Of a stretch of DNA of 32,676 nucleotides, positions 22,416 to 31,973 are shown in pieces (within the stretch, counting starts at the first letter, position 1; every line of letters starts with the position of its first letter). The translations under genes and the position numbers were made by a program. The notes under the pieces are model-generated. The model did not search any database. It had not been told where the DNA came from and was given only the letters and a program-made list of their open reading frames with translations. Source of the stretch: Cryomorphaceae bacterium BACL11 MAG-121001-bin54 (GTDB lineage: Bacteria > Bacteroidota > Bacteroidia > Flavobacteriales > BACL11); NCBI GenBank assembly GCA_905182255.1, contig CAJJAH010000005.1, positions 10,001 to 42,676 on the forward strand. The letters are read 5' to 3'.

Positions 22416-22734
22416 AGTATTCAAAAGAAATATTATTATTAAGCAAATATAGTAAGTTATAGTAATCATAACATATTTATATTTCTTATAGTAAAATACT
22501 CTATATTTCAAACATACTAATTACAACCTTCTTCGCAATTATTAAGAGCCAAAATTTTTATTAATATACATATTAAAGTAATGCCATTCAGATTAAGTAG
22601 TAATAGAATAAAAATAAAAAAACTCCTAAAAGAAGTTTAATTTTTTCTAATTTATAAATTAAAAAAACAAGTTTATAAAAAATCAAATAATAAATAAAAT
22701 ATAATTTTTGCATAGCTTTTAAATAAATAATCTA

Positions 22735-22742
22735 TACATTTG
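22735..22742 (+). promoter_or_regulatory. -7 element for the small membrane proteins and glycosylase
   Basis: TACATTTG at 22735-22742, with a possible -33 TTG at 22708-22710 (24-nt spacer, longer than usual). It is the only good promoter signal ahead of the 56-residue protein gene at 22767 and would serve the three-gene run to 23887. Confidence 0.45.
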
Positions 22743-22766: not shown

Positions 22767-22937
22767 ATGAAAGAATTTGTTGCCGTTTATTATCCAATAA
22801 TATTAGCATTCATCTGTATGCTATATTCAATTGGTTTCCATATATTTGACATGCCCGAAGAAGCGCAATATTCAGCTCACTGGCCAGGTACAATATTGTT
22901 GTTCGCAATAGCTATCAGACAAAGAAGAAAATCATGA
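22767..22937 (+). CDS. tiny membrane protein, 56 residues
   Basis: An open frame from ATG at 22767 to TGA at 22935-22937. The product begins MKEFVAVYYPIILAFICML and has two hydrophobic segments (about 5-25 and 41-50), a polar acidic loop with FDMPEEAQYSAHWPG, and a basic C-terminus RQRRKS. Signs that it is real: a -7 element 24 nt upstream, an ATGA overlap with the next small frame, and the same strand and tight spacing as the DNA glycosylase. No family is recognised. It was found by reading the gap and is below common length cut-offs. Confidence 0.6.
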   Translation: MKEFVAVYYPIILAFICMLYSIGFHIFDMPEEAQYSAHWPGTILLFAIAIRQRRKS

Positions 22938-23071
22938 ATTCAGGAATGCTTATAGTTGGCTTTATTATTTTCTCAGTGTATATATTTGGACTCATATACA
23001 TGATAAATTATTCTCACAAATCTCAAGAAAAAGATATGAAGAATGATCCTGAATTAAAAAATTTAAAATAA
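22934..23071 (+). CDS. tiny single-helix membrane protein, 45 residues
   Basis: ATG at 22934 overlaps the preceding stop (ATGA), and TAA is at 23069-23071. The product has one membrane helix (MLIVGFIIFSVYIFGLIYMI, residues 5-24) and a charged tail (SHKSQEKDMKNDPELKNLK). This is the layout of small single-pass subunits or regulators, but no function can be named. The glycosylase start follows 18 nt later. Confidence 0.55.
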   Translation: MNSGMLIVGFIIFSVYIFGLIYMINYSHKSQEKDMKNDPELKNLK

Positions 23072-23089
23072 TTTTAAATCCCTATTTAA

Positions 23090-23887
23090 ATGCCAGAAGG
23101 CCCAGAAGTAAAAATAGCTTCAGATTATTTCAACGAATTTTTTTCCAAAAGTAATAAAATAGAATTTGAAACTATTTCTGAGTATTATGATCAAAAATAT
23201 TTTACTGTTTTCAAAACAATTAGCGAATTACTTAAAACACCCAAACCAACTTTTACAGTAGGAAAAAATATATTTCTTGAATTAGAAAACAATCTAATAT
23301 TTAATTTCCATTTAGGCATGACTGGAGGTTGGTCAAATGAGTTAGTTAAACATTGTCACTTTCGTGCTTTTGACTCTAATAATGATCTATTTTTTAAAGA
23401 TGTAAGAAAGTTTGGTAATATGAAGATCATAACACAAGATCAATTTAATGAAAAATTTAATCCTGATTATGATCTTCTCAATAAATCATATTGTTTAAAA
23501 AGTCATTTAGATTATTTAGTGGATAATATTAGAGCCAAAAAAACCATTTGTTCCTTGATTATGGATCAAAAATATTTTCCTGGCGTCGGAAATTACATTA
23601 AATCTGAAAGCTTGTATATATCAAAAATACACCCTGAAGAAAAATGGGGTAACCTTAATAAAGATAAAATAACTAGCTTAATAAGCAATACACAAAAAGT
23701 AATGAAGGATAGCTACAAATCTGGAGGTGCAGAGTTAAAGGATTTTAAAAACCCTTTTAATCCATCCAAATTTAGACTGCAAATTTACGGCAAGAAATAT
23801 ACTGAACAAAATAACATAGTAACATCTGAAAAAACTTCTGATTCTAGAAAGACTTGGTTTTGTTCTAAACAACAGAAATTAATTTAA
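23090..23887 (+). CDS. Fpg/Nei family DNA glycosylase with a degenerate zinc finger
   Basis: A bifunctional base-excision repair enzyme that removes oxidised bases and nicks the strand. The N-terminus is MPEGPEV, giving the essential N-terminal Pro and Glu after Met removal. A conserved Lys is at 59 (VGKN), HLGMTG is at 74-79, and the helix-two-turn-helix MDQKYFPGVGNYIKSE at 158-173. In place of the normal four-Cys zinc finger, residues 230-262 keep the beta-hairpin outline (IYGKKYTEQNN; DSRKTWFCSKQQ) with the finger Arg (253) but only one Cys (258). This resembles the zincless finger of NEIL1-type enzymes. Substrate range cannot be told from sequence. It is last in a run with the two tiny membrane proteins. 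Confidence 0.9.
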   Translation: MPEGPEVKIASDYFNEFFSKSNKIEFETISEYYDQKYFTVFKTISELLKTPKPTFTVGKNIFLELENNLIFNFHLGMTGGWSNELVKHCHFRAFDSNNDLFFKDVRKFGNMKIITQDQFNEKFNPDYDLLNKSYCLKSHLDYLVDNIRAKKTICSLIMDQKYFPGVGNYIKSESLYISKIHPEEKWGNLNKDKITSLISNTQKVMKDSYKSGGAELKDFKNPFNPSKFRLQIYGKKYTEQNNIVTSEKTSDSRKTWFCSKQQKLI

Positions 23888-24037: not shown

Positions 24038-24649
24038 ATGAAAATATATAAAATACTTCTTATTGCTCTATTATTAAATAACACATCATTATTTGCACAA
24101 AAATATCCAACAATTAACATTGGTGAACAAATGCCTATGCAAAAAATAGAAATATTTGACACAAATGAAAAGAGCAGAACACTTAATAACAGCCTAAAAA
24201 AAAATGGTCTATTAGTAGTATTTACTTCCAACTCTTGTCCTTTTGTAGTAATGTGGGAAGATAGATATAAATTACTAGAAGAAAAGTGTAAGAACAACAA
24301 CATAGGGATGGTTTACATAAACTCAAATCAAGCAAAAAGAGATGGAGATGATTCAGTTGAAAAAATGATAAATCATTCAAAAGAAATGGGTTATACTTTT
24401 CCATATTTGATAGATAAAAATAGTGCAATGGCAAATGCCTTTGGCGCCAAAACAACTCCTCATATATTTTTATTTAATAACGAAAAAACATTGATATACA
24501 AAGGGGCTATAGACAATAATTATAAGTCAGCTAACGATGTTACTGAAAACTATTTATTAGATGCATTAGAGAACGTTAGTAATCAACAAGCTATTAGTAT
24601 TAAAGAAACTAAAGCCGTAGGATGCAGCATAAAAAGGGTTAGAAAATAA
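24038..24649 (+). CDS. exported thioredoxin-fold (AhpC/TSA-like redoxin) protein
   Basis: A 203-residue periplasmic protein: signal peptide 1-20 (ending LFA), then a thioredoxin fold. The active-site segment is FTSNSCPFVVMWEDRY (about 62-77), with only one cysteine, Cys67; the position occupied by Cys in a CxxC motif is Asn or Ser. The cis-Pro loop is KTTPHIF. The C-terminus has GCSIK, a second conserved cysteine seen in this branch. A single peroxidatic-type cysteine argues for a peroxiredoxin-like or thiol-binding role rather than a disulfide reductase. It is 150 nt after the glycosylase, with no clear terminator between. Confidence 0.82.
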   Translation: MKIYKILLIALLLNNTSLFAQKYPTINIGEQMPMQKIEIFDTNEKSRTLNNSLKKNGLLVVFTSNSCPFVVMWEDRYKLLEEKCKNNNIGMVYINSNQAKRDGDDSVEKMINHSKEMGYTFPYLIDKNSAMANAFGAKTTPHIFLFNNEKTLIYKGAIDNNYKSANDVTENYLLDALENVSNQQAISIKETKAVGCSIKRVRK

Positions 24650-24848: not shown

Positions 24849-25745
24849 TTATTTTTTATTATAAAAATTAGTCATTATTATTGCATGAGGCAATGTTATA
24901 ACTGAGATACCAATTATTGAAAAAAGAAATACCGAAATATCAATGAACCCAAAATTCATTAACAATAAGAAAATTACTAAAAACAAAATAGAAAGTAAAG
25001 TATGAGGATACAATAATTTAATAAAACTAAGAAGGTTTAAATCAGACTGCAAAGATTTCAAGTAATCAAACTCTTGTTTCAAAACTTTAATTGAATGAAG
25101 AAAAATAAAGTATAATGTAAAACTGATAATTATTGGAAATAAATAAAAAGTAATATGAATTAAGATCAACAGAAATATTTCATTCATTAACTGCTGATTA
25201 GAAATACTTGATTTATAATTTTCAAAAAATAACAAAGAAATTATTATTAAATTAGTAAAATAAAAAATATACTTAAAAATTGAAATATTAAATACCAGAC
25301 TAAAATTCTCAGTATCTATAAACTGATTTGATAGTAACAATAATTCCTTATTATTATAAAAAATTAAAGTTGAAAGTAACGCAAATCCCCAAATCAAATA
25401 AATAATTCTTTTCTTATATGTAAAAGAATAATCTACAAGTTGAGATTCACCAAAATGGTAAGATGACAAGAATAAAAAGAAAACAAGTGATATAACTGGT
25501 GTTATCCACCAGAAAAAACAGTAAATAATTATAGTTACAATATATATTAAATAAAATCTAAATCTTGTGATTTTGTTAGATGATAAGTAAATAATATTAT
25601 CAATTGCTCCGTGAGGAATACCAAAAAGAGAAATTAAAATTATAGAACCTAAAACTTGACTCTGCATGCTAATCTCACCATTTAATGTGAAAATTGCAAA
25701 AAGAGCATAAACAAATATGAGATATGTGAATGTAAATTTATTCAA
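24849..25745 (-). CDS. blh: Brp/Blh family beta-carotene 15,15'-dioxygenase
   Basis: Splits beta-carotene into two retinals, the chromophore of the rhodopsin encoded next to it. It is a polytopic membrane enzyme of up to 298 residues. Its iron-binding histidines are recognisable in GIPHGAIDN (about 42-50), SSYHFGESQ (about 94-102), FLHSIKVLK (about 219-227) and LPHAIIM (about 283-289). No ATG precedes the first conserved helix: an upstream stop lies at 25782-25784, and the only early start is TTG at 25743-25745. The next Met, codon 27, would remove the first helix, so TTG is kept with caution. The start lies directly after the T-run of the rhodopsin terminator. Expression may depend on read-through. 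Confidence 0.88.
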   Translation of the reverse strand: MNKFTFTYLIFVYALFAIFTLNGEISMQSQVLGSIILISLFGIPHGAIDNIIYLSSNKITRFRFYLIYIVTIIIYCFFWWITPVISLVFFLFLSSYHFGESQLVDYSFTYKKRIIYLIWGFALLSTLIFYNNKELLLLSNQFIDTENFSLVFNISIFKYIFYFTNLIIISLLFFENYKSSISNQQLMNEIFLLILIHITFYLFPIIISFTLYFIFLHSIKVLKQEFDYLKSLQSDLNLLSFIKLLYPHTLLSILFLVIFLLLMNFGFIDISVFLFSIIGISVITLPHAIIMTNFYNKK

Positions 25746-25803: not shown

Positions 25804-26535
25804 CTAAGCTACTTTTTTATTTGATTCAGCTATAGCGATAGAATAAACCACTAATCCAAATCCGATTTTGTTAATTGCATCAGCAATGTTATACCATACA
25901 TCAACACTTTCTGGTGCCATAACACTACTTAACCATCCACCCTCCATACACATGTATCCAATTGGATAGATTGACCATCCTACTAATACAAACCAAGCTA
26001 AATATTTAACGCCTTTCTTAATAGCATCAGAATTACTTTTTTCAGCTAATTGAGCAACCTCACCAAACCATACAGTGTAAGCTATGTATAAGTAACCAAT
26101 AGTTGAAAGCACCCCCCATGTTACAGAATGACCAGTAGTTCCATCTGAGAATGCCTCTCCAATATATCCACAAACTAGCATCCAAGTTGAAGCAAGAATT
26201 AACTTCCATAATAGACTTTTCTTAGCTCCAGCCAGTTTAGTAAGTAAATAAAACTCAACACACATCAATGGAACAGTTAAGATCCAATCTACATATCTGA
26301 AGAAAGTTGGAGAAGTTTCAGTTGCTAACCAGTAGTCTCTCATGTAATAATAGTGTACAGCAGCTATACCCGTAATTAGAGCTGATACTAGTAAAGACAT
26401 TTTCCATTTGTCGTCAACACTTCCTCTTTCAACGAAAAAGAATACAGATGCTGCTAACATTGCAATATAACCAATAAAGAATGTGAAAGCCACATAATTA
26501 TCTGGTGCAATTGCTGTAATAACATTTAATAACAT
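25804..26535 (-). CDS. proteorhodopsin, green-type proton pump
   Basis: A seven-helix, light-driven proton pump of the inner membrane, 243 residues. The retinal Lys is K223 (ADAINKIGFG). In helix C, RYVDWILTVPLMCVEF gives Arg80, proton acceptor Asp83, Thr87 and proton donor Glu94, the DTE pattern of outward proton pumps (D97/T101/E108 in the reference numbering). The conserved His61 matches H75. The tuning position (reference 105) is Met91; Met or Leu there goes with green absorption and Gln with blue. It pairs with blh just downstream. A promoter lies 27 nt ahead of the ATG. Confidence 0.97.
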   Translation of the reverse strand: MLLNVITAIAPDNYVAFTFFIGYIAMLAASVFFFVERGSVDDKWKMSLLVSALITGIAAVHYYYMRDYWLATETSPTFFRYVDWILTVPLMCVEFYLLTKLAGAKKSLLWKLILASTWMLVCGYIGEAFSDGTTGHSVTWGVLSTIGYLYIAYTVWFGEVAQLAEKSNSDAIKKGVKYLAWFVLVGWSIYPIGYMCMEGGWLSSVMAPESVDVWYNIADAINKIGFGLVVYSIAIAESNKKVA

Positions 26536-26590: not shown

Positions 26591-26727
26591 GTAATTAAAT
26601 CTTTTATTTTGTATAATTTTTTATTGATAAAACTATACATTTATTAAATAATTATATATAATTTAAAATATTGCTAGAAAATAGTGCTATTTAAGAAATA
26701 TTAAAATAAAAAATGAGCTATTTTCAT

Positions 26728-28726: not shown

Positions 28727-29390
28727 TTAAATTTTTCTTTTCCAAAATTTATTCATTTCTGAAGCAGGTGTAGTGCTTAATCTTGGAAAAGGTAATTCAG
28801 CTATCTTGTTCATAGTATAGTAAGAATTTAAGCCACCAACCCCTACTGAATTACTATCCTCCAAATCAATTGATCCTTCTAGCTATAAAATTAATACCAT
28901 CATCTAATAAAACATGCTCTACCTCTCCAATAATAAATTTACAACCGTTACTTTTAATTGGAATTATTTCATGTAATTTAAGACCTATTTTCACTTTACT
29001 TTCCTTTACAAAAGGAGGGGAGTAATTATCAATATAAAAACTTTCTAAATTACAATAATCAAACTCCGATTGGTCTTCATTAAAATTAAGGGAAGTATAA
29101 TGTGCCTTTTCAACAAAATTAGAATTCACATGATTAATAGTGAAATGTTTAGTTTCTAATATGTTGTTTAAGGTATCTCGTTTCACATTATTATTTGGAC
29201 GCATTACAAAACCAATTAGTGCCGGATCACTTCCTAAATGTACAACCGAGCTGAATATAGCTAAGTTTGTATTGCCACTTTCACTTAAAGTACCAATCAA
29301 ATTAGCAGATTTAATTCCAGTAATAGAATTCATTAACCTTAATCTTTTAATTCTGTTTAAATCCTTAATTTCTAATTTTGTATAATGCAT
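28727..29390 (-). pseudogene. flavin reductase-like (FMN-binding split barrel) gene with a +1 frameshift
   Basis: The first 170 codons (from ATG at 29388-29390) read a flavin reductase-domain protein: LMNSITGIKSANLIGT, NLAIFSSVVHLGSDPALIGFV and HFTINHVN are typical of the DIM6/NTAB family, which binds FMN. The frame stops at 28866, but the next frame continues seamlessly with EGSIDLEDSNSVGVGGLNSYY and ends at 28727 (NKFWKRKI). Removing one base at about 28880, within TAGCTAGA on the coding strand, restores a normal product of about 220 residues. So this is either a recent pseudogene or a sequencing indel. It is the last gene of the cluster that starts with the SDR. Confidence 0.8.
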
Positions 29391-29934: not shown

Positions 29935-31973
29935 TTATTTAATATATTTTATTAGCATCTTGGGTAGATATATTATATCAAATATTAATGCTATGATGGC
30001 TGCTAAAATAGTTATTATTGATAATTGACTAATAGATTTGAATTCAGAAAATAATAATGGAAATAAAGTAAATATAATTACTATGGATGTTTTAATTACA
30101 GCCTTGTAAGTATAATTTTGACAATGCGATACAGAGTCTGCAATACTTAAACCCCTATTTCTAGAGAGGCTGTAAGCATTAATAATATGTATTGAATCAT
30201 CAACAATCAAACCAAAAACAATAGCTAAGTATAAATGCATTAGAAAGACTAAAATAAAAACCAAAAACTGATAGAATACCTATAGTAGTTAGTAATGGAA
30301 GAATATTAGGAATTAAGGAAATTGGAAAATAGTACCAATTAAAATTATTTAGTGACACAAACACTATTCCAATTATTATGATTGCAAGTAATAAACCAAA
30401 TATAATTTCAAAAGTCATTTTATTGCTGATTTTATCAAAGAGAAATCCAACTCCAGCAATCTCTAAATCTAATTGCAAGTCTTTAGATTTCATTAGTATA
30501 TCATCAAAAATAATCTTTGATTTACTTGACCAATATCTTGCATTCTGGCCTTAATTGTGTACTGACTATTGTTGAGATTTTGGCTAATTTTCTTTGACAA
30601 AAAATCTGAAGAAAAATCAATAACTAAATTATGACTAAGTATTATGTTTTCTAGAGAATCTAAATTATCTCTTGATGGATTATCATTAATAATAAAAGTA
30701 ACTGGCTTTATACCACCAAATTCTTTATCAAAAAAACTAATATCCTTTATATAGTTAGACTTTTTATTAATCTCATCAGTAAGGAAATTATCAACTCTAA
30801 AATTAGTAAAGGCTAAAGATGAAAGAAATATAAATGATGCTAATAATATATAAAACTGAGATTTTTTAATATTAATAAATGACAATATTAAATCATCTAA
30901 AAATTTGTTGCTTCTAATATTCTTATTGATATTAAATTCAATAATAAATGAATATAAAACTACGATTACAATAAGAGATATAAAAATTGTAATAGTAGTA
31001 ATTACACCGAACCTAAACAAAGGGACTAATGATGAGAACATAAAACTCAAAAAACCTATAGCAGTTGTTAAGGAAGTAATAAAAACTGGCATACCTATCT
31101 TTTCTAATTGATACTTAAAGGATCTAAATTTATTTTTATATAATTTATCAGAATTCAATAGATGCATAAAATCAGAAATAGTAATAATAAAAACTATAGC
31201 TGGTATAAGAATCATTACTAATTCAATACCCTCCAAATAATTTATTAGAAAGAGTAAAAGAAAGAATTAATGAGATACAAACTGATATGAAATTTATTAA
31301 TACTAATTTAAAATTATTTAAATAAAAATATAAAACTAAACTACATAAAATACTACTTAAGATAATAAATAACATCAACTCTTTAGTCACATTATCCTGC
31401 ATATAAATCTCAGATTTAGTCTGACCTGTAATGTATACCTTTAATTTATCTTTAGAAAATTCTTGTGCTAATTTATCTAAGTATAATCTTTTTTGCGAAT
31501 CAGTTTCTAGACTCTTCGATTTAATAATAAATAAAAATGAGCTGAGGTCTTTTGTTGCATATTTAGTTCCATACTTTCTAATTTTAATTATTGAGGATTT
31601 ATAATCATTAAAATTATCAATTTTTAAAATTTTAAGTGCAAATGGAATAACACTTTTTTTAATCAATACTCCTCTCATTAAATATACTTCTAACAGAAGC
31701 TGTATTTTTATCTTTTGAAATATTATTTGAAATAATAGATAAATCTAATAGATCTTGGTAATTGATTGAATCATTAAATTCAACAGCTAGCAAAATTAGA
31801 TTTTTATCATCTAAAGATTTATCAATAATATCCTTACTCTCGTTCGATAATTCAATAATTCGTTCACTATCATAAAAAATTTTTAAACCACTTATATTAG
31901 TTAGTGATAATACAAACATCGATAATATTAACGAAAGTAAAAGGTACTTATATTTCCATATAAATTTTATCAC
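29935..31973 (-). pseudogene. RND/MMPL-family exporter gene with four frameshifts
   Basis: Five consecutive frames together form one transporter of about 678 residues. It has a start helix (YLLLSLILSMFVLSL), a periplasmic domain, a five-to-six-helix block (MILIPAIVFIITISDFMHLL, FITSLTTAIGFLSFMFS), a second periplasmic domain and a second helix block (GLIVDDSIHIINAY, IIFTLFPLLF). This is the duplicated layout of HAE3/MmpL-like transporters that move lipids or hydrophobic compounds. Breaks lie at about 31659-31680 (+1), 31223-31236 (+1), 30521-30523 (-1, in an A-run) and 30200-30264 (+1, probably the T-run near 30234). Their sum fits the total length. The likely start is GTG at 31971-31973, overlapping the SDR stop. 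Confidence 0.8.

Follow-up and report, generated by a model that had tools for sequence, protein, structure and literature searches.

Two small membrane proteins, P1 and P2, encoded directly ahead of a DNA glycosylase gene in the Cryomorphaceae bacterium BACL11 MAG-121001-bin54, probably form a light-controlled inner-membrane module that is expressed with the glycosylase, is made together with rhodopsin, carotenoid and photodamage-repair genes, and acts against redox stress. The stretch of DNA that was analysed, hereafter the window, is 32,676 nucleotides long, and its proteorhodopsin gene carries the same promoter dyad as the pair.

P1 (56 amino acids) and P2 (45 amino acids) are encoded on the forward strand at 22767–22937 and 22934–23071, respectively; the two frames overlap through ATGA (22934–22937), and 18 nt (23072–23089) separate the stop codon of P2 from the ATG of the glycosylase at 23090. 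The initial annotation had described these frames, this spacing, and an upstream −7 element, all of which were located exactly; the −7 box (TAnnTTTG, here TACATTTG) lies at 22735–22742 on the forward strand and fits the Bacteroidota −7 consensus, and the key element proved to be the dyad that overlaps it (22710–22737). At a threshold of E ≤ 0.001, 17 of the genomes of 60 relatives contain P1, with no stop codon inside the frame. A search of the named genome collection matched 174 stretches, from which 80 loci were kept, with titles that are nearly all those of marine Flavobacteriia-type organisms. P2 directly follows P1 in 79 of the 80 loci, the exception being L142 (another rule for scoring P2 after P1 missed both L138 and L142), and the junction is an ATGA overlap in most loci and a short gap in some. 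The same gene order in relatives, which the initial annotation had put forward as support, is thus found for the two small genes, but does not extend to the glycosylase, which lies beside the pair in only five of the 80 loci. Pairwise comparisons with L083, L084, L086, and L088 gave dN values of 0.008–0.059 and dS values of 1.2–1.75 for P1, and 0.009–0.047 and 0.43–0.79 for P2; against L085, the dS of P1 was saturated, and P2 gave a dN of 0.056 and a dS of 0.60. The frames are therefore conserved with synonymous-biased changes, which the initial annotation had named as support, and this substitution pattern indicates that P1 and P2 are real proteins under purifying selection. P1 is duplicated within one locus in L204 (G208) and in L138.

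P1, which contains the motif EEAQYSAHWPGTILLFAIAIRQRR, is predicted with high confidence to form a helical hairpin; its AlphaFold2 model has a mean pLDDT of 94.6, with helices at residues 2–26, 30–36, and 39–55. P2 has one hydrophobic helix and a charged C-terminal tail. Profile and sequence searches matched P1 to no Pfam, NCBIfam, PHROG, or PDB family, and neither member of the pair has a relative in the PDB by sequence. The family matches of P2 (MscL, DUF1673, DUF5411, Pex24p, and PspB) were all sub-threshold, and an assignment of P2 as PspB was rejected at 12.6 of 51.7 bits and 13.9 of 90 bits, below the curated cut-offs. A wider relative of P1, termed subfamily C, has about 60 amino acids and stands alone, without P2, in Flavobacteriaceae; it belongs to a broader, unnamed small membrane family. 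In two Flavobacteriaceae loci (L244 and L249), such a lone P1-like protein is encoded shortly 3′ of an mscL-like gene, and in the metagenome-assembled genomes (MAGs) L112, L124, L133, and L141, the pair adjoins genes read as pntA/pntB-like transhydrogenase genes. Derivation of a function from a conserved gene neighbor was rejected because the neighbors differ between clades.

The glycosylase (23090–23887, forward strand) is of the Fpg/Nei type, with its N-terminal and H2TH domains both above cut-off, and is presumed to be the last gene of the operon. Its assignment as an Fpg equivalog or as endonuclease VIII was rejected, the NCBIfam scores being 106.1 of 203.3 bits (Fpg) and 69.2 of 252 bits (Nei). 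It is present in 33 of 60 relatives' genomes, in several of them on a contig other than that of P1, and the pair lies away from any glycosylase of the window's family in 75 of the 80 loci. Because of these separate contigs and the adjacency in only five loci, the glycosylase and the pair are not obligate partners; their adjacency is clade-specific, and a common regulator explains the arrangement. A survey of 30 glycosylase loci and four regulator loci revealed recurrent glycosylase clusters with a CarH-like regulator, DUF2452, fasciclin, MsrA, SOUL, or an SRPBCC-like gene (SRPBCC being a reading without a family match), and some glycosylase clusters or operons in relatives carry the dyad. The window arrangement is one more instance in which genes of the light regulon are united under one promoter. 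The suggestion of a stress-sensing membrane complex that shares regulation with repair is partly supported, insofar as some glycosylase clusters stand under the same dyad, but neither for a sensing function nor in the sense that the glycosylase is a fixed partner.

The dyad ahead of the pair, GCATAG-N16-CTATAC (22710–22737), spans 28 bp and is the proposed operator of a CarH-like MerR/B12 regulator. A strict pattern scan found exactly two copies in the window, one ahead of the pair and the other (26611–26638) 75 nt upstream of the start codon of the rhodopsin gene, and these two remained the only copies in G000, the window's own genome (1.04 Mb), when up to one mismatch was allowed. Upstream of P1 in the window's family, the element reads as the 28-bp inverted repeat GYATAR-N16-YTATAC, with its right arm overlapping the −7 box. 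A scan of 22 genomes of the family, in which ATTTG had to follow the dyad and a single mismatch was tolerated, gave 39 matches, against two for the reversed pattern. The targets in these genomes include crtI, cupredoxins, cupredoxin-fasciclin genes, and glutathione peroxidase, as well as some genes without an evident relation, such as TonB-type receptors; in G001 and G013, crtI diverges from the MerR/B12 regulator gene at the dyad.

A variant of the dyad with GTTTA arms was recognized from rhodopsin promoters. Among spacers of 10 to 22, only 16 is enriched, with either half-site type: 22 sites in the 80 pair loci (0–2 per half-site type for other spacers) and 50 sites in 110 rhodopsin loci (0–5 for other spacers). 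Ten isolate or MAG genomes gave 141 matches to the variant, with the two strands of the palindrome counted separately, against 27 for the control. In Kordia, Psychroserpens, and Polaribacter irgensii, the variant precedes crtI-crtB, right after the regulator gene. These sites come from a survey of chosen regions in five of the ten genomes, with genes named by reading where Pfam gave no call; there the variant also stands ahead of folE, a photolyase, the flavin reductase gene that opens a photolyase cluster, fasciclin, a TetR-like gene, and genes whose relation is unclear.

A strict dyad lies within 70 nt of P1 in 11 of the 80 pair loci (the first type in nine, the second in L118 and the Kordia locus L128), and in L093 and L114 a dyad precedes the gene ahead of the pair. 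Kordia aestuariivivens has the dyad at the pair, at rhodopsin, and at crtI. No dyad could be assigned in the remaining pair loci of the 80; Polaribacter pairs, and pair loci outside the window's clade in general, are mostly without a strict one, so that membership of the pair in the regulon can be read from sequence only in the dyad-bearing lineages. Since the motif was first derived from pair promoters, independent evidence comes from the sites at rhodopsin, crtI, and the other genes and not from those at the pair. The lines of evidence agree, and the regulation of the pair is well supported by sequence.

The candidate regulator has features of a CarH-like protein. The protein of L343, encoded beside crtI, matches MerR_1 and B12-binding_2 above cut-off and the PF02310 B12-binding domain below it (25.1 against 32.1 bits), and a W-x9-EH motif is present in both regulators checked (L343 and L345); according to a published review, this motif is one of two that define CarH, and known CarH operators are described as direct repeats (PMC8156234). 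The dyad was accordingly ruled out as a classic CarH operator (tandem 11-bp direct repeats of nAnnTnnACAn), the element being an inverted repeat. When the dyad was examined for an AnnTnnACA half-site, the position left undefined by the motif was T, in the sense of the 5′ arm, in 44 of 56 arms from regulon loci and 26 of 42 from pair loci, and in 53 of 96 arms from rhodopsin loci and 19 of 40 from isolate sites, the latter two being near the AT background. The search for a CarH-like gene succeeded in 53 of 80 genomes and found none in G000, the assembly of which is 53% complete. A shorter MerR-type paralogue (about 220–240 amino acids), which matches the CarH-like query only up to about residue 185, lies near the glycosylase in L039, L042, and L047 and in genomes G014, G028, and G031.

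Downstream of the pair, the window encodes on the reverse strand a DTE-type proteorhodopsin with M at the tuning position (25804–26535, by family match and residue check) and blh, the beta-carotene 15,15′-dioxygenase of retinal synthesis (24849–25745, by family match). A redoxin-domain protein (24038–24649, forward strand) lies between the glycosylase and blh and is retained in the closest relatives, L083 and L084. A flavin-reductase-like open reading frame (28866–29390, reverse strand) shares 43% identity over 173 amino acids with the dyad-controlled gene that opens a photolyase cluster in Polaribacter filamentus (L600); given this likeness, the 22.7–29.4 kb part of the window may form an island of light-related genes. 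Farther along, a transporter-like segment (29935–31973, reverse strand) shows repeated multi-helix segments split among several frames and might be a gene that has decayed or been frameshifted.

The pair also tracks rhodopsin across genomes. Rhodopsin is found in 97 of 395 genomes of the order, in 34 of 47 pair-bearing against 63 of 348 pair-less genomes (p = 1.3 × 10−13, Fisher test). The 47 comprise subfamilies A and B, with subfamily C excluded and with ten of 57 genomes dropped for weak or partial matches (G017, G052, G177, G179, G182, G253, G256, G299, G308, and G344), among which G017 and G177 have rhodopsin. Near-complete genomes (completeness of 90% or more, contamination of 5% or less) gave 15 of 17 with the pair against 47 of 280 without (p = 1.4 × 10−9). 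The control for phylogeny is a single within-genus test, in 60 Polaribacter genomes, where rhodopsin occurs in 8 of 11 with the pair against 8 of 49 without (p = 5 × 10−4). Fifty of the named pair-bearing genomes behind the 80 loci were tested, and rhodopsin occurs in 41, as it does in every one of the 11 isolates among them (isolate status by title), large-genome ones included: Maribacter halichondriae, M. antarcticus, Psychroserpens burtonensis, Kordia aestuariivivens, Winogradskyella vincentii, Flavobacterium I-STPP5a, and Polaribacter irgensii, filamentus, glomeratus, IC066, and IC073. Rhodopsin was not found in 13 of the 47 pair-bearing genomes. G013, 99% complete, has the pair, lacks rhodopsin, and retains the dyad ahead of both crtI and the pair. 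The pair without rhodopsin likewise occurs in four g8 genomes (g8 being a genus), which are only 58–75% complete, and in Polaribacter G816, G827, and G766. Rhodopsin subtype was rejected as the link: among pair-bearing genomes, 48 of 49 sequences are DTE with M at the tuning position, and among pair-less genomes, 62 of 65 are. Each group has a single NDQ sequence, and the other two pair-less sequences are fragments in which residues are masked. Part of the co-occurrence could be explained by a shared lifestyle.

Copies of the pair are carried by phages, being located on contigs with phage hallmark genes. A scan of IMG/VR yielded 84 relatives of P1, with identity down to 56%; 80 loci were retained, 78 of them with P2 after P1. 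As several contigs are near-identical, these are not 80 independent phages. On different contigs, proteins near the pair match phage families of tail fibre, ssDNA-binding protein, topoisomerase II, ATP-dependent ligase, and thymidylate synthase; a carbamoyltransferase match and several proteins without a match were also found among those scanned. A rhodopsin scan of IMG/VR found none, which, within its reach of close relatives only, makes misfiled chromosomes less likely. A P1 from a viral contig matched none of 50,697 named phage records, and no PHROG family was matched. A flavodoxin-fold oxidoreductase (Flavodoxin_2) is present in 22 and a glycosylase in 17 of the 80 viral loci, frequently in the order glycosylase, oxidoreductase, P1, P2. 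Bacterial genomes of one clade encode the same oxidoreductase, at 73% identity to its phage counterpart, as the first gene of an operon that also contains a DoxX-like gene and the pair; this link is absent in the window, and the phage glycosylase shares only 27% identity with that of the window. The phage copies of the pair are without the dyad, of which a single copy occurs in the 1.19 Mb of viral sequence scanned.

P1 and P2 may accordingly be pictured as two translationally coupled inner-membrane proteins produced with the glycosylase from one light-controlled promoter. In the dark, a CarH-like MerR/B12 repressor would occupy the dyad across the −7 box and keep the promoter silent; light would release it, and the pair and the glycosylase would then be produced at the same time as rhodopsin, the carotenoid enzymes, and the proteins that repair photodamage. 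P1 as a hairpin and P2 as a helix would assemble into a small membrane complex that keeps the illuminated membrane working, most likely by countering stress of photo-oxidative or quinone redox origin; the cytosolic flavodoxin-fold NAD(P)H oxidoreductase would be its partner where it is encoded adjacently. We infer binding by the CarH-like protein, induction by light, complex formation, and the redox role; the biochemical role is suggested by the gene company, which includes repair, peroxide and methionine sulfoxide reduction, carotenoids, and a quinone-type oxidoreductase.

The idea that the pair is an accessory to the nearby rhodopsin region, also raised in the initial annotation, is partially supported. 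In its strongest form, P1 and P2 would bind the proteorhodopsin pump and aid its folding, oligomer, or coupling, which would fit the strong co-occurrence, the dyad common to pair and rhodopsin gene (the only two in the window), the subfamily-B P1 that lies about 300 nt or less from rhodopsin in G261, and the linkage of the pair to blh or rhodopsin in L083, L084, L126, and L150. This form is nevertheless unlikely, given the 63 rhodopsin genomes without the pair, the similarity of rhodopsin type in pair-bearing and pair-less genomes, and, above all, the existence of the pair without rhodopsin in G013 and in phages, because of which a membrane role in redox processes or photoprotection is favored over that of a fixed rhodopsin subunit. 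A separate, more far-reaching reading, which we hold to be possible rather than probable, is that the pair is a previously unknown energy- or redox-coupling membrane complex of rhodopsin-based phototrophy under a CarH-like light switch, and that large phages of marine Flavobacteriia carry a copy with the flavodoxin-fold reductase and a DNA glycosylase, keeping the lit host membrane and DNA serviceable during infection.

It is still less likely that the pair is an unrelated membrane gene of pelagic lifestyle or phage origin (holin-like, or acting in superinfection or ion leak), with habitat producing the rhodopsin correlation. Its presence on many large phage contigs without the dyad and the varied neighbors among host clades are compatible with such an origin, but the association persists inside Polaribacter and throughout the isolates, the dyad connects the pair to light genes, and the pair is under purifying selection in hosts. 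Small size and the lack of a family match are all that would speak for spurious frames or a mere regulatory leader for the glycosylase, which can be dismissed almost entirely: the low dN relative to dS already refutes it, phage relatives remain recognizable at 56% identity, and nearly all loci lie away from a window-type glycosylase. The preferred reading remains a light-controlled module with a redox-stress role.

Our literature search found no paper describing the pair or the dyad; CarH-type light regulons are known, and no description was found of one in flavobacteria that combines rhodopsin, an inverted operator, and a phage-shared, unnamed membrane pair. Kumagai 2018 compared rhodopsin-bearing with rhodopsin-lacking Flavobacteriia and found blh, DUF2237, and photolyases enriched; the sections consulted do not name the pair, and the methods omitted groups of unknown function from annotation (PMC5932025). 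Proteorhodopsin is abundant in the sea, and how it is switched on, how the lit membrane is protected, and what else it needs are poorly known. The present analysis supplies a promoter element of defined sequence, a repressor that may be the photoreceptor, a set of genes that are candidates for co-regulation, and a rhodopsin-tracking, phage-borne membrane pair that hints at an unrecognized part of the life of ocean bacteria with sunlight, and all points are testable in culturable Kordia, Psychroserpens, and Polaribacter.

Among known systems, DUF2237, which lies directly upstream of the pair in five of the 80 loci, resembles it in being uncharacterized and enriched in rhodopsin-bearing Flavobacteriia genomes, but is no membrane pair and is reported from 11 phyla (PMC5932025), whereas P1 is found in Flavobacteriia-like genomes and phages. 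With PspB and MscL, P2 shares the build of a small membrane protein with a charged tail, yet it scores far below their curated cut-offs. Cyanophages carry photosynthesis genes, and the phage copies described here would likewise be those of a host light-related membrane module, although no rhodopsin was found in the IMG/VR collection; if the energy- or redox-coupling reading is true, the pair would be the rhodopsin-world counterpart of those genes. The closest likeness is to the B12-dependent CarH/LitR light regulons of Myxococcus, Thermus, and Bacillus, with which the candidate system shares a MerR and B12-binding architecture, the W-x9-EH motif, adjacency to crtI, a promoter-overlapping operator, and carotenoid genes among the targets. 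It differs in that the candidate operator, to which binding is predicted, is a 28-bp inverted repeat instead of 11-bp direct repeats, and in that the targets here include rhodopsin and the membrane pair.
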